Positions 330-39,892 of a DNA stretch of 49,904 nucleotides are shown one piece after another. Below the pieces are notes generated by a model. It worked only from the letters and a program-made list of their open reading frames with translations. It searched no databases and was not told where the DNA came from. Every line of letters begins with the position of its first letter. Position 1 is the stretch's first letter. Both the position numbers and the translations under genes were made by a program. Origin of the DNA: an uncultured Nitratifractor sp. (GTDB lineage: Bacteria > Campylobacterota > Campylobacteria > Campylobacterales > Sulfurovaceae); the NCBI GenBank assembly GCA_913054475.1, contig CAJXJF010000005.1:1-49904 (forward strand). Direction: 5' to 3'.

Positions 330-2419
330 ATGCTACTTAGCAGAGAAAGAGCGTTGGATTATTTAAGAAATTCCCTCCGGAATCACAATATAAATTTCAG
401 GGAAGACCAGTGGGAGTCGATCGATGCTGTCGTCAATCGGCGCAAAAAGGTGCTTGCCGTCCAGAAGACCGGATGGGGGAAGAGCAGTGTCTATTTTATC
501 TCGACGAAATTCCTGAGAGAAGAGGGGAGTGGTCTGACTATCATCATCTCCCCTCTCTTGGCGCTGATGCGCAACCAGATCGAAGCGGCGTGGCGGCTGG
601 GATTGAATGTCGTGACGATCAATTCGACAAATAGGGATGATTGGGAAAACATCAAGCAGGAAATTTTGGCCGATAATGTGGATGCGCTGCTCGTTTCTCC
701 TGAGCGGCTCGCCAATGAAGATTTCATGCAGGAAGTATTGGAGCCTATAGCAGGAAGTATTGGGCTTTTCGTAATCGACGAGGCGCACTGTATCAGTGAC
801 TGGGGGCACGACTTCAGGCCCGATTATCGGCGCATTACCAACATTTTGAAAAAGATGCCGGCCAATACGCCGATACTGGCGACTACGGCAACGGCCAACG
901 ATCGCGTCATTGCCGATATCGAGAGTCAGATAGAAGGTATGGTGACGATTCGCGGATCACTCAAAAGGGAGAGCCTGCGGCTTTTTACGCTGCGTATGCC
1001 GGATCCTTCGCATAGACTGGCATGGCTGCTGGAGCATCTGCCGGACTTTGAAGGGTCTGGTATCATCTATGTCCTGACACAGCGCGATGCGAGGATCGTG
1101 GCGCAATGGCTGAATGAAAACGGTATCAGTGCGGAGCCTTATTACAGCGGTGTCGAACACGAGGATTTTGAAACGAGTGATGCCTACCGCATAGCGCTGG
1201 AAGAGAAGCTTTTGAAAAATGAAATCAAAGCGCTTGTCGCCACATCGGCATTGGGTATGGGGTTCGACAAACCCGACTTGGGGTTTGTCATCCATTACCA
1301 GGCACCGGCTCCATCATCAGCTACTATCAGCAGGTGGGGCGCGCCGGACGCGCGATCGATGACGCATACGGCATACTGCTCAGTGGGCATGAGGATGATG
1401 ACATTCACGAATTTTTCAGAATATCATCTTTCCCGAGCCCGGAAATGGTGCAGGTGATTTTGAGGGCATTGGAAGAGAGTGAGGAGGGGCTTTCCATCGT
1501 GCAGCTCCAAAAAGAGCTGAATTATTCACAAGGCGATGTCACCAAAACACTGAAGTATTTGAGTGTCGAAAACCCTTCACCGGTCATGAAAATCCAATCG
1601 AAGTGGTACCGAACGGCCAATCCTTATGAATACGATACGCAGAAAGTGGAAACGATCACAGCAATCCGTCGGCGAGAGTGGGAAGAGATGCAAAACTATC
1701 TGGACACGGATGAGTGCCTGATGATGTTTTTGCAAAAAGCGCTGAACGATCCTTCTCCGGAATCTTGTGGAAAATGCGCCATCTGTACGACACCGTTAAG
1801 TAGCGAGTTCGCGCATGAGATCGGAGTAAAGGCGGCGGAGTTTTTCCGAAAAAGCGATATCGTTTTCAAACCCAAAAAACAGGTGAAACCCGATGCATTG
1901 AGCGAATATGGCATACGCGGGAATTTAAGAGAACTTCGTGCCGAAGAGGGGCGGATACTTTCCAGATGGGAAGATGCCGGATGGGGAAAGATGGTTGCGG
2001 CAAACAAACATCAGGGATTTTTCGAAGACGAACTGGTTGACGCCATGGTTGAGATGATACGCAAATGGCATCCGGAGCCTTACCCGATCTGGGTGACCTG
2101 TGTACCATCCCACAGACATCCGGAGCTCGTACCGTCCCTAGCAAAACGAATCGCGCAGAAGCTTGGACTTCCATTTGTCGATGCCGTGCATAAAATAAAA
2201 GATAATCAGCCCCAAAAGATGATGCACAATGCCTATCATCAGGCCAAAAACCTCGATGGCGTATTTAGGGTGGATGAGAATATCCCTGCCAAGCCGGTTC
2301 TGCTTGTCGATGATGTTATCGATTCGGGATGGACGGTCACGGTCGTCGCTGCACTTTTGAAAGCCAAAGGAGCCACGCATATCTATCCAACGGCTCTGGC
2401 GAGCACAGGAAAGATGTAA
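330..2419 (+). pseudogene. RecQ-type helicase fused to a phosphoribosyltransferase, frameshifted
   Basis: A superfamily 2 DNA helicase joined to a PRTase. The first part has Walker A TGWGKS (residues 47-52), the RecQ signature DEAHCISDWGHDFRPDY (about residue 151), TATAN, and ATSALGMGFDKPD. Near 1307 the frame shifts: restoring one G (ccggctcc to ccgggctcc) gives SIISYYQQVGRAGR, the expected motif VI, and continues in the frame of 1334-2419. That part has a winged-helix-like segment, a RecQ-like zinc-binding region ending CGKCAIC, and a C-terminal PRTase with PRPP loop VLLVDDVIDSGWT. The start ATG has AAGGA six bases upstream. Its stop overlaps the next gene's start (TAATG), so the two are cotranslated. 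Arg codons CGC/CGG are common, unlike neighbours. It may be inactive, or the shift may be a sequencing error. The PRTase plus DprA pairing recalls ShosTA defence. Confidence 0.75.
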
Positions 2420-3618
2420 TGGATAATCTAAGTTTGAACGCTCAGGCCATTGTACTGCTTAGCGCCTATTTCAACAAAGGCGACAAACCGCTGACGGTTA
2501 TGGAATACGCGAAATTTGCCATTTGGCTCAAAGAGCGAGGCAGAGAGCCGGGTGATCTCTTGAAAGAGCAGGCGACGGAAATCCTGAAGGGTTGGGAAGA
2601 CAAAAAAATCACCCTCGAGCGCATAGAAAAACTGCTTGCACGCGGAAATGCGATGGCGATCGCCTTGCAAAAGTGGCAAAATGCCGGGATATGGATTTTG
2701 ACACGGGCAGATGTGGAATATCCCAGACGGCTGAAAAAGAGATTGGGGCATAAAGCACCACCCCTCCTTTATGGTGCGGGAGACAAAAAAATATTGAAAA
2801 CCAGAGGCGTGGCGATCGTAGGCTCCCGAAATGTGGGGAATGAGGATCTGGAGTTTTCCTATGAGCTTGGAAAAAAGCTGGCATTGTGCGGATACAGTGT
2901 CGTGTCGGGTGGCGCTCGGGGTGTCGATGAAGCTTCCATGATGGGTTCTATCGAGGCGCAAGGAACGACAATCGGCGTGCTTGCGGATGGACTGTTGAAA
3001 AAAGTCCTCTCGAAAAAATACCGGCAGGCCATTATGCAGGGGAATCTGGTGCTCATTACGCCTTTTTATCCAGAAGGCCGCTTCAGCGTAGGCAATGCGA
3101 TGGGACGGAATAAGTACATCTATACTCTCGCGGATACAGCCATCGTTGTCCATTCGGGAAAGAGAGGGGGAACATGGGAAGGTGCCAAAGAGAATCTCAG
3201 GCATAAATGGGTGCCGCTTTTCGTAAAAGAGAGCGATGATACAGAAGCAGGCAACAGCGAATTGATCGATATGGGCGGTATGCCTCTTTCGCGCACCATT
3301 TTGAAGGACGAAGCGATTGAGTATCTCTTCGAGGTATCGCAAAAAGAGAAAAAACTCAATGAAGAAAATAAAAAAACCGATCTATTGAAGCAGGAGAAAA
3401 ACGAAGCGATAGGGCTTTCTCTGGATGAAATGATACTTGAACTCCTGAGCAAAGAGAGACTGCCGATTAAAAAAATTGCGGAAAAAATCGATGAAGAAGA
3501 GAAATCGATCAAAAAGTGCATAGACAAACTTGTCAAATCAGGGGAGATTCAAAAACATAGGAATAGACCACTTCAGTTCAGCAGGATTTTGAAATTGCCT
3601 GGTATGGATAATATATGA
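2419..3618 (+). CDS. DprA-like (DNA-processing/SLOG fold) protein with C-terminal winged helix
   Basis: A 399-residue protein of the DprA/Smf superfamily. The Rossmann-like core starts with VAIVGSRNVG (about residue 131), followed by VVSGGARGVDEASM and TTIGVLADGL, matching the nucleotide or ssDNA-binding core of DprA. A positively and negatively charged linker (about 305-335) leads to a C-terminal winged helix of the kind found in DprA. The N-terminal 100 residues are helical and SAM/HhH-like in position. I chose ATG 2419 because it overlaps the upstream stop as TAATG; an in-frame start at 2329 lies inside the PRTase. True competence DprA is usually a lone gene, whereas this one is locked to a PRTase-helicase gene, which suggests a defence or toxin-antitoxin role like ShosA. 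That role is inference. Confidence 0.75.
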   Translation: MDNLSLNAQAIVLLSAYFNKGDKPLTVMEYAKFAIWLKERGREPGDLLKEQATEILKGWEDKKITLERIEKLLARGNAMAIALQKWQNAGIWILTRADVEYPRRLKKRLGHKAPPLLYGAGDKKILKTRGVAIVGSRNVGNEDLEFSYELGKKLALCGYSVVSGGARGVDEASMMGSIEAQGTTIGVLADGLLKKVLSKKYRQAIMQGNLVLITPFYPEGRFSVGNAMGRNKYIYTLADTAIVVHSGKRGGTWEGAKENLRHKWVPLFVKESDDTEAGNSELIDMGGMPLSRTILKDEAIEYLFEVSQKEKKLNEENKKTDLLKQEKNEAIGLSLDEMILELLSKERLPIKKIAEKIDEEEKSIKKCIDKLVKSGEIQKHRNRPLQFSRILKLPGMDNI

Positions 3619-5719: not shown

Positions 5720-6547
5720 TCACTCCTCTGTACTGTATAAGATCCTTCGATAGATTGCGGAGACGACGAAATAGACCATCAGTCCCGTTGCCGACACCAG
5801 GATGATAGAGGCACCAGAAGTGAGGTCGAAGATATAGCTTGCAAGCAGACCGCAGAGTGTGAAGATGGCGGCGAGTATCCCCGAGACTATCATCATGGAG
5901 TAGAGTGAACGGGTCACTCTTTCGGCTATGTATGTCGGTATGGTCATGAGGGCTATTACGAGAATCAGACCTACCACCTTTATCGATACGACGACAGTCA
6001 TAGCCGCTCCAAGAAGCAGCATTGTATATACCAGACGGCTCGGTATTCCCCGCAAAGATGCGTATTGGGAGTCGTAGCTCACCGCCAGTATCTCCCTGTA
6101 GTATCTGTGTACCAGCAGGAGTATCACGGCCAGCAGCAGGGCCATGGCGTAGAGGTCGCTCTTGGAGACTGCGAGAATCGAACCGAAGAGGTAGCTCATC
6201 AAATCGCTATGATATCCCGGTGTGATATCTGTGAAGAGTACACCGATAGCCATTCCGACAGCCCATATCAGCCCTATGAAGCTATCTATCCTCTCTCTGT
6301 GTTCGATTGTGAGCCAGGCTATCAGGAGGGCCGAAAGAGCTGCGAATATACCGGCACCGAGGAAGATGGGGATACCCAGATATAACGCCATACCTATGCC
6401 GCCGTACGAGCTGTGAGCTATACCGCCTGCGAGAAAGACCATTCTGTTGACCACTATCAGAGAGCCTACGATACCGGCACAAAAGCTCACCAATATGCCG
6501 GCTATCATGGCATTTTGCATAAAGTCGTATGTAAATATCTCCATCAT
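5720..6547 (-). CDS. znuB: Zinc/manganese-type ABC transporter permease
   Basis: A 275-residue integral membrane subunit of the ABC-3 family that carries Zn2+ or Mn2+ across the inner membrane. It has about eight hydrophobic spans, with the family patterns GSLIVVNRMVFLAGGIAHSSYGG near the N-terminus and VVGLILVIALMTIPTYIAERV in the second half. Its start overlaps the znuC stop by four bases (ATGA). The metal is inferred to be zinc from the histidine-rich loop of the linked binding protein. Manganese or iron cannot be fully excluded. Confidence 0.85.
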   Translation of the reverse strand: MMEIFTYDFMQNAMIAGILVSFCAGIVGSLIVVNRMVFLAGGIAHSSYGGIGMALYLGIPIFLGAGIFAALSALLIAWLTIEHRERIDSFIGLIWAVGMAIGVLFTDITPGYHSDLMSYLFGSILAVSKSDLYAMALLLAVILLLVHRYYREILAVSYDSQYASLRGIPSRLVYTMLLLGAAMTVVVSIKVVGLILVIALMTIPTYIAERVTRSLYSMMIVSGILAAIFTLCGLLASYIFDLTSGASIILVSATGLMVYFVVSAIYRRILYSTEE

Positions 6548-7326
6548 CTTCTCTCTCCCAGCATCTGCATCATCTCCACTTCACAGAAGTGCTCTCCTTC
6601 GGGAGTCTCTATCGAGAGTGGTTTTTCCGAAAGGTCGTGCATATAGCTCTCTCTGTTTACATATATCACCTTGTTTGCATAGGAGGTTACCGCAGAGAGG
6701 TCGTGACTTACCACGAATATCGTGAGCTCGGGAGTCAACCCCTCGAGCAGTGTGTAGATTCTCTTTTGCCCCTTTGCATCTATATTGGAGGTGGGTTCGT
6801 CGAGTATCAGCAGTCCGGGGTGTGCGCATAGCGCTCTGGCTATCATGACACGCTGTCTCTCTCCGCCGGAGAGTTCACCAATCTTTCTGTCGATGAAGCT
6901 CTCCATACCCACCTTTTCGAGAGTGCTGTATGCGCATCTTTTCTCGATATCGTTGTATCTTATTGGAAACATTCTGTCAAGCAGGGAGCGCCTGCCCGTA
7001 TGTCTGTTTTTGTTTCCCATCATCACCACATCCAGTACCGTTATGGGAAATCCTGTATTTACATCCACATTCTGGGGAACATAGCCTATCTCGTTTCTCA
7101 CTTCGAGCGGACTGCTGCCGAAAATCTCTATCTTTCCGGCATCGGGCTCCAAAATCCCCAGCAGCAGTTTCAAAAGAGTCGATTTTCCACCCCCGTTGGG
7201 CCCTATTACGGCGGCGAACTCCCCGGCATATATTTCGAACTCTATATTTCTGAGCACCTTTTGCCTGTCGTAGGCGAAGTCCACTCCCGAAACCTTTATG
7301 ACACTCGTGCGTTCCTTCTCTTTCAA
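6544..7326 (-). CDS. znuC: Zinc/manganese-type ABC transporter ATP-binding protein
   Basis: The 260-residue cytoplasmic ATPase of the metal importer. It shows Walker A GPNGGGKST, Q-loop in GYVPQNVDVN, signature LSGGERQR, Walker B LLILDEPTSNID and the switch histidine in VSHDLSA. The order PNGGGKST and the YVPQ motif are typical of the ZnuC/MntB family. It overlaps both neighbours by four bases (ATGA at each junction), so the three subunits are translationally coupled. The last 30 residues carry several acidic and sulfur residues (EHFCEVEMMQM), and ZnuC tails are often variable. Confidence 0.87.
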   Translation of the reverse strand: MKEKERTSVIKVSGVDFAYDRQKVLRNIEFEIYAGEFAAVIGPNGGGKSTLLKLLLGILEPDAGKIEIFGSSPLEVRNEIGYVPQNVDVNTGFPITVLDVVMMGNKNRHTGRRSLLDRMFPIRYNDIEKRCAYSTLEKVGMESFIDRKIGELSGGERQRVMIARALCAHPGLLILDEPTSNIDAKGQKRIYTLLEGLTPELTIFVVSHDLSAVTSYANKVIYVNRESYMHDLSEKPLSIETPEGEHFCEVEMMQMLGERR

Positions 7327-37772: not shown

Positions 37773-38405
37773 TCAAAGAAATCTCAAAAACGCGTGTCTG
37801 ATAACAGTAAAATAAGGCAATCCTTCAATCTTTTCGAGCTCGTCTCTCAGTAGTGGTATCAAATCTTTCTTCGGATAATTTTCAGCCAGTTCTTGGAACT
37901 CTTCAATGGTCTGCAAATAGCCTTTTACCGCCTGTTCTCTGGCAAAACGCAATGGGCCCCTATCGTGATCCAGATTGAAAACCCTTAATGTTTCCCGGGC
38001 TTTTTTCAGCTCCTCACCATCTAGGTCGTCTCTGGGAACAATCCTCCCATTCGTTAAAAAAATTAAAAAGCGATCCGGATCATCGACATCTGGTTTGATG
38101 AGGTCATTGGGATCATACGATTGCTTATCTTTGAATTTTCCACAGCTATCTTCACGATTGCACGAGCCAAAAAGATTTTCCCATTCAAAGCTCAGCTTGG
38201 CAAAAGATGACCTCTGCCTAAAATGCTCGATATGCCTCTTTTCTGTCAGCTCCGACTCGCAGTAGGCACAGAGTCCGCCCTGCATCTTTTCCAGCTGTTG
38301 CCAAATTTCATGTTTCTCTCTGTCCGTCACATCGTTCCATCTATCTCTACGATAATCATATTTTTTTAAACATCTTGGCGGTGCCGTTCTATCTAACTTG
38401 TGCAT
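37773..38405 (-). CDS. ptuB: Septu HNH nuclease PtuB
   Basis: A 210-residue HNH endonuclease of the retron/Septu (TIGR02646-like) family. The zinc and active-site pattern is present: CAYCESEL, then KRHIEHFRQRSSF, and LFGSCNREDSCGKF. It follows the ATPase gene with a 17-base overlap in another frame, so the two are cotranslated. In Septu, PtuA and PtuB together restrict phages. No retron reverse transcriptase is nearby, so this is a stand-alone Septu. Codons (CGA/CGC for Arg, ATC for Ile) differ from neighbouring core genes. Confidence 0.85.
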   Translation of the reverse strand: MHKLDRTAPPRCLKKYDYRRDRWNDVTDREKHEIWQQLEKMQGGLCAYCESELTEKRHIEHFRQRSSFAKLSFEWENLFGSCNREDSCGKFKDKQSYDPNDLIKPDVDDPDRFLIFLTNGRIVPRDDLDGEELKKARETLRVFNLDHDRGPLRFAREQAVKGYLQTIEEFQELAENYPKKDLIPLLRDELEKIEGLPYFTVIRHAFLRFL

Positions 38406-39783
38406 CTTCTTTTTTATCGAAAAGCTTTTTTTTCATTTCATGGAGTCTCAGCAAACGACGACACTCCAAAACTTCAGGATGAGTATCCCCGAAATGGTGA
38501 ATAATCTTAGTCCGCAAATCCTCCATCTCATCCGCAGTTCCCATTTCGATCGCTTCTTTATAAGTATTCAGCCATTTGGCTTCTTCTACATCCGGAACAG
38601 GATCGATTCCCATGATTCTAGCAAGCGCTTCGTAGCTTGCGACACCCTTCGTTTGAAACTCTGGTTCGACCGATACAAAGCTATTTTTCTGTATGGCTTG
38701 CGACTCGCTTTTGCTTTGAATGAGCCTGATATTGCTTCTATCGATCGCACTCAACACCTGCGGACTGTGTGTCGTAACTATAAATTGAACCTTCGGAAAC
38801 GCTTCCAGTAGTGTTCCAAGAACCACCTGTTGCCATTTTGGATGTAGATGCATATCCACCTCATCGATCAGAACAATACCATTGGTCTCTTTCGGAGCAT
38901 TTTCGAGATGTGGATTCAGCTTGCTACAGCGATAGGCGATATCTGCCACCAGCCCTATCATATTTCTTACACCGTCACTCAGACGCGACACAGGGATCGT
39001 ACCGAACTTCGGATGATCTGCAGTCAGCTCCCGAAACTCGAAATCGTAACGCAGATTTTTCCAGCCGTTGATTCCAAGACAAATATTTACAGCTTCGTTG
39101 ATCGATTCGAGGCTTTTGTTGCCAACAGTCCGTATCTCACCGCTATCGACAGATCCTGACTCGATCAGTTTGATCATACGATCATACCTGGCTCTCGATT
39201 CGTCGCGGAACCATTGGGCGAAATGTTTGTATGTCGATTTCGGATCCATTGCGTCGCTATAGCCATAGAGGCGTGATCTGGATAGTTTCGACTCGCTGTA
39301 TGACAACTGCTTTTGATTCCACAAGCGCCCTGTTCCGTAATAGGAGACGATCGGCAAAAGCACCTGTGAAGAGTGCTCTTCTTCCCGAACTATCTTCTGC
39401 AATTTCTTCGCATATCTCTGTAGTGCTGTCGCCTCTGCGATCGTAGTGCGAGACTTCATTCCCGACAAAGCGCGGGCCCACTGTATCGGACGATTATCCA
39501 CAAGCCCTTCGGCTTCCAGTCGGACAGGAAACAGGCTCTCCATCGTATAGGAGGAGTTGTCGTTCTTTTTGATGACAAGTCTGGCATCGTCGTTGGCGAA
39601 TCCTCTGTTCGTGCCTGTATCGAATCCGCCGATAAAAGGCCCCAATGCGATAGAGATTGCATCCAGCACCGCACTCTTGCCCATCCCGTTTTCTGCAACA
39701 ATGACAGTCAGTTTTTCATCAAAAACTATTTCAAAATCCTCGAAACAGCGAAAATTATAGAGTCGTAATTTCTTGATAATCAT
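38389..39783 (-). CDS. ptuA: Septu ATPase PtuA
   Basis: A 464-residue SMC/ABC-type ATPase. It begins MIIKKLRLYNFRCFEDFEIVF with Walker A VAENGMGKSAVLD, a signature-like RLSDGVRNMIGLVAD, Walker B GIVLIDEVDMHLHPKW and the H-switch VTTHSPQVLS. This is the ATPase half of the Septu defence pair with PtuB. I chose ATG 39783, six bases after GGGGA; a TTG twelve bases upstream (39795) is possible. The gene starts 130 bases after htpG ends on the same strand. Codon use suggests transfer. Confidence 0.87.
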   Translation of the reverse strand: MIIKKLRLYNFRCFEDFEIVFDEKLTVIVAENGMGKSAVLDAISIALGPFIGGFDTGTNRGFANDDARLVIKKNDNSSYTMESLFPVRLEAEGLVDNRPIQWARALSGMKSRTTIAEATALQRYAKKLQKIVREEEHSSQVLLPIVSYYGTGRLWNQKQLSYSESKLSRSRLYGYSDAMDPKSTYKHFAQWFRDESRARYDRMIKLIESGSVDSGEIRTVGNKSLESINEAVNICLGINGWKNLRYDFEFRELTADHPKFGTIPVSRLSDGVRNMIGLVADIAYRCSKLNPHLENAPKETNGIVLIDEVDMHLHPKWQQVVLGTLLEAFPKVQFIVTTHSPQVLSAIDRSNIRLIQSKSESQAIQKNSFVSVEPEFQTKGVASYEALARIMGIDPVPDVEEAKWLNTYKEAIEMGTADEMEDLRTKIIHHFGDTHPEVLECRRLLRLHEMKKKLFDKKEDAQVR

Positions 39784-39892
39784 TATTTTCCCCAATAAAT
39801 CGATTGAAGTATATCATTATTTTTTTCGGGGATATCTCCACGGGCAGTACTCCTTCGAAGGAGGGCGAAATCCCGGTGATAAGATTGCGGGG

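Follow-up and report, generated by a model that had tools for sequence, protein, structure and literature searches.

A PsyrTA/RqlHI toxin-antitoxin module, very probably acquired by horizontal transfer and carrying a frame change in its toxin gene, in an uncultured Nitratifractor

Introduction

A gene pair near the start of a contig of an uncultured Nitratifractor species very probably represents a horizontally acquired toxin-antitoxin/abortive-infection module of the PsyrTA (RqlHI) type, with a one-base frame change now present in the toxin gene. On sequence evidence the gene pair, at positions 330 to 3618 of the window (the whole stretch of 49,904 nucleotides that was analysed), is by descent a member of this already named toxin-antitoxin/phage-defence system. 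Its toxin gene is apparently broken here, or else the assembly is in error. The identity, gene order, gene overlap, frame break, sporadic distribution and transfer signature were computed in this work, while toxicity, partner binding and defence are taken from the literature.

PsyrTA was described in Pseudomonas syringae (Sberro et al., 2013, as cited in PMC8790059). The equivalent RqlHI pair was characterised in 2015 in extra-intestinal Escherichia coli, where RqlH, 698 residues long, joins a helicase to a C-terminal phosphoribosyltransferase (PRTase) domain, and RqlI comprises 400 residues and is DprA-like (Russell and Mulvey; PMC4670107). In that host, RqlH without RqlI induces the SOS response and filamentation, for which the PRTase and its PRPP pocket are required; RqlI binding to RqlH needs the PRTase part and restrains the genotoxic PRTase (PMC4670107). 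ShosTA, PsyrTA and RqlHI have been grouped by their DprA-like antitoxins (Rousset et al., 2022; PMC9122126). PsyrTA is classed as an abortive-infection system (PMC10855318), and one E. coli PsyrTA gave no phage protection in its native host (PMC12409345).

The locus and its identity

Three coding stretches, all on the + strand, encode in order a RecQ-type helicase, a PRTase and a DprA/SLOG protein, the composition that the original prediction had read at this position. The features are as follows.

154 to 297, + strand: interrupted tail of an unrelated upstream gene, reading KKGLIEYTIPKKAKSSKQKYRLM and then a stop, with an internal stop
330 to 1457, + strand: N-terminal, RecQ-helicase half of PsyrT/RqlH (open reading frame of 375 aa, frame 3; PADLOC PsyrT, Pfam)
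1302 to 1309, + strand: one-base frame change in the PsyrT homology (frame-by-frame reading against the intact relatives L033, L034 and L035)
1307 to 2419, + strand: C-terminal half of PsyrT/RqlH (PADLOC PsyrT, Pfam Pribosyltran; mechanical open reading frame 1334 to 2419, frame 2)
2419 to 3618, + strand: antitoxin PsyrA/RqlI, 399 aa, intact (PADLOC PsyrA, Pfam DNA_processg_A)

The helicase half matches the Pfam families DEAD (PF00270) and Helicase_C (PF00271), and the last 50 or so codons of its open reading frame, after about position 1305, are out-of-frame read-on. The C-terminal half holds helicase motif VI, a CX2C region resembling the RecQ zinc-binding domain (a weak match, within the open reading frame at 1334 to 2419) and the PRTase domain, which matches Pribosyltran (PF00156, E 1e-9) and contains the PRPP loop VLLVDDVIDSG. 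PsyrA consists of a DprA/SLOG domain (DNA_processg_A, PF02481, E 7e-40) and a helix-turn-helix region at the C-terminus; its start was set to the ATG at 2419 with the support of its relatives, the mechanical open reading frame beginning at 2329. The PsyrT stop and this start overlap as TAATG (2417 to 2421), as had also been predicted. A promoter search at the locus gave no signal above that of shuffled sequences.

Against the PADLOC models, the window pair covers the PsyrT and PsyrA profiles almost end to end. The helicase half matches PsyrT at E 2e-154 (profile positions 4-320), the C-terminal half matches it at E 2.3e-123 (330-685 of 689), and the third protein matches PsyrA at E 9.4e-141 (2-393 of 398). 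The likeness to PsyrTA/RqlHI extends to the overall plan, namely a toxin of about 695-700 codons that joins a RecQ-like helicase to a C-terminal PRTase, with a DprA-like partner of some 400 residues directly downstream, in the same order and with the same gene overlap; the difference is the toxin frame, broken by one base on the window's side of the comparison only.

The original prediction had proposed a helicase-armed relative of ShosTA and knew of no named system with the helicase fusion. Kinship with ShosTA and the character of an accessory toxin-antitoxin or anti-phage cassette both hold up; the novelty does not, given that PsyrTA/RqlHI is such a system and PADLOC models exist for both of its proteins. 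ShosTA reportedly goes back to Kimelman et al. in 2012. It too combines a PRTase effector with a DprA-like antitoxin, and the window pair shows clear similarity to ShosA (E 1.2e-30, and E 2.4e-9 to the solved ShosA structure 9vzo). However, the ShosA match is confined to residues 65-263, whereas that to PsyrA spans the whole length; the match to ShosT reaches only E 2e-6, ShosT has no helicase domain, and the PsyrT and PsyrA models score better by about 100 orders of magnitude. As the RecQ-PRTase fusion with a DprA partner was described in 2013-2015 as RqlHI/PsyrTA (PMC4670107) and listed beside ShosTA by Rousset et al. (PMC9122126), we consider a new ShosTA-like system very improbable. We give still less credence to a chance neighbourhood of housekeeping genes, that is, RecQ, a ComF-like PRTase and DprA of competence or repair. 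The domain names, and indeed the domain superfamilies, are common to both, but the genome carries a separate complete RecQ (G000:C25:6632-7681) and a separate DprA (G000:C27:6961-7494), and the window proteins fall under the NCBIfam equivalog cut-offs (222.9 against 640.2 bits for recQ, 97.3 against 191.15 for dprA). Moreover, most relatives lack the pair, and it occupies no single syntenic locus throughout the family. We regard the window pair as an ordinary additional PsyrTA, probably inactivated.

Two reading frames in the toxin gene as sequenced

The original prediction placed helicase and PRTase in the same gene and overlooked that, as sequenced, they lie in different frames (frame 3 and frame 2, respectively), although by homology they are collinear and complete. 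The homology to one continuous PsyrT changes frame at about 1302-1309, immediately before motif VI (QQVGRAGRA), and the two halves meet at profile positions 319/320. This break is not common to relatives, since PsyrT is uninterrupted in 83 of the 90 with a usable stretch. Frame changes or deletions affect the window copy, L178 (in genome G394), L126, L128 and L110, and in-frame stops affect L073 and L107. Toxin decay in excess of antitoxin decay was not convincing among these copies (of about 90, 7 toxin genes and up to 4 antitoxin genes are broken). The two halves of the window toxin are otherwise conserved like intact copies (bit scores of 512 and 436, against 965-990 for intact copies), which suits a recent mutation, or an error of sequencing or assembly, better than long decay.

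Two of the other interrupted copies deserve description. L178 (G394:C4, around 15090) is the second out-of-frame PsyrT of the phylum; it too changes frame near motif VI, with a shift opposite in direction to that of the window copy. In L128, from Proteus vulgaris PR00166 (about 6355-7318), PsyrT lacks about 360 central codons and is followed by an apparently intact PsyrA.

Two accounts of the break would leave the cell with a full-length toxin. Under one of them, sequencing or assembly introduced the frame change in error, and the normal fused toxin is produced along with its antitoxin. We hold this to be quite possible, if short of probable: only one base, within a short run, is affected, the halves are free of further stops, and the great majority of relatives keep the frame open. 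Against it, a scan of roughly 40 open reading frames of the window brought no further split gene to notice, and most of them match Pfam families along their length; the assembly thus gives little impression of being prone to errors, and the balance leans towards a real mutation. In addition, the independent breaks in L178, L126 and L128, together with a broken toxin gene in Shigella sonnei 53G (PMC4670107), indicate that real loss is common enough. Under the other account, programmed frameshifting would yield both a short helicase and the full fusion from one message. The two frames do overlap by more than 100 bases, and the break in G394 falls at almost the same motif, yet the sequence at the switch point contains no slippery heptamer, the G394 shift runs in the opposite direction and at a different place, and the 83 uninterrupted relatives require no shift at all, which makes this account highly unlikely.

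Distribution and probable horizontal transfer

PsyrT was found in only 4 of the 175 genomes of the window's family and in 11 of the 397 genomes of its phylum, where it is scattered across 9 genera. The same counts hold for the pair and, with the separate RecQ and DprA described above, bear out its predicted standing as an accessory cassette, as opposed to a core locus or a ComF-like housekeeping gene. A scan of named genomes yielded 80 loci from Pseudomonadota, Cyanobacteriota, Chloroflexota, Actinomycetota, Bacteroidota and other groups. Nearly all of the approximately 95 loci, which come from many phyla, present a full-length fused PsyrT followed by PsyrA, with the stop of the former and the start of the latter usually overlapping or no more than 10 bases apart.

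In a tree of the C-terminal half, the nearest kin of the window copy belong to other families of the same order (100/100 support, 65-70% identity), and the copies in G079, G025 and G051, all of the window's own family, are placed elsewhere; G363 and G442, which belong to different families, carry nearly identical copies. The foreign arginine codons that had been suspected are borne out as well: AGA and AGG account for 26 of the 63 arginines in the pair and for 469 of the 657 in 27 other window genes (Fisher p 2.8e-6), and the share in the pair lies under that of the lowest single gene among those 27. Taken together, sporadic presence, kin in other families and the arginine codon bias fit horizontal transfer.

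The pair is bordered on the left by the contig end, window base 1 being base 1 of contig C5, and on the right by ordinary chromosome. The decayed upstream neighbour of the original prediction is present as the interrupted tail at 154 to 297, but it is a weak sign, as most of that gene lies beyond the contig edge. In the same-genus genome G058, the flanking nitroreductase has none of the other tested neighbours in the 12 kb examined. With the neighbours in G058 differing and the left edge of the window falling at the contig end, the insertion boundary is not definable.

Two further ideas were set aside. Phage carriage was rejected, with phage records giving distant partial matches only. In G079 and G025, a conserved protein of about 253 residues is encoded just 5' of PsyrT (L063:13496-14254 and L064:7170-7934, both on the - strand), and Pfam and NCBIfam searches gave no match to it. 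It was rejected as a third gene of the system, because its relatives occur elsewhere in the phylum away from PsyrT and it is absent at the other loci.

The same contig also carries a Septu-like pair 34 kb from PsyrTA (window 37776-39795, - strand), comprising a PtuA ATPase (38392-39795, - strand; PADLOC E 5e-157) and a PtuB HNH nuclease (37776-38405, - strand; PADLOC E 2e-85, and above the cut-off of the NCBIfam PtuB model). Its arginine codons are also atypical (AGA and AGG share of 0.54 against 0.71).

Embedding in other defence operons

Targeted PADLOC scans and the homology survey were used to look at the surroundings of PsyrTA elsewhere, and this search across genomes, which the original prediction had suggested, finds the pair often lodged within type I restriction-modification (R-M) or BREX operons. 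On an E. coli conjugative plasmid it is flanked by hsdS and hsdR of a type I restriction system, and on an Acinetobacter plasmid it lies within a BREX operon. Embedding in type I R-M operons recurs in Pseudomaricurvus, in Providencia, in a gammaproteobacterial symbiont and in three genomes of the window's phylum, and embedding in BREX recurs in Vreelandella. The loci concerned are listed here.

Inside type I R-M operons: L066, L069, L095, L140 and L181-L183
Inside BREX operons: L067 and L074

At a further locus, L180, PsyrTA adjoins an Avs4/PD-Lambda-4-like gene. Acinetobacter BREX modules have been drawn with RecQ and dprA genes in a published figure, and the relevant passage of that source carries no PsyrTA label (PMC10117892). 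One reading of such embedding, which we consider unlikely, would be that PsyrTA serves as a fail-safe, killing the cell once the operon around it is blocked or lost; the window copy would then be a stray one, its toxin silenced in the meantime.

Proposed mechanism and significance

By the published account of E. coli RqlHI, the C-terminal PRTase that the RecQ-like helicase bears in intact members harms DNA metabolism, with SOS induction and filamentation as the outcome, and the DprA-like partner binds the PRTase part and keeps it in check. In defence, release or activation of the toxin on phage infection may then lead to cell arrest. Translation of the window copy would instead yield a helicase cut off in the middle of the second RecA domain and, at most, a second product, a PRTase fragment begun at an internal start. 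Because neither RqlH without its PRTase nor the PRTase alone inhibits growth or induces SOS in E. coli (PMC4670107), the module of this strain, as sequenced, has most likely lost its activity, and what remains is an intact antitoxin.

On its own the window copy matters little, being one further, probably broken, PsyrTA, although it illustrates that PsyrTA can be mistaken for a novelty when read without databases. The repeated embedding of PsyrTA in type I R-M and BREX operons of unrelated bacteria may be the more useful side result, in that it offers a testable handle on what triggers the toxin.
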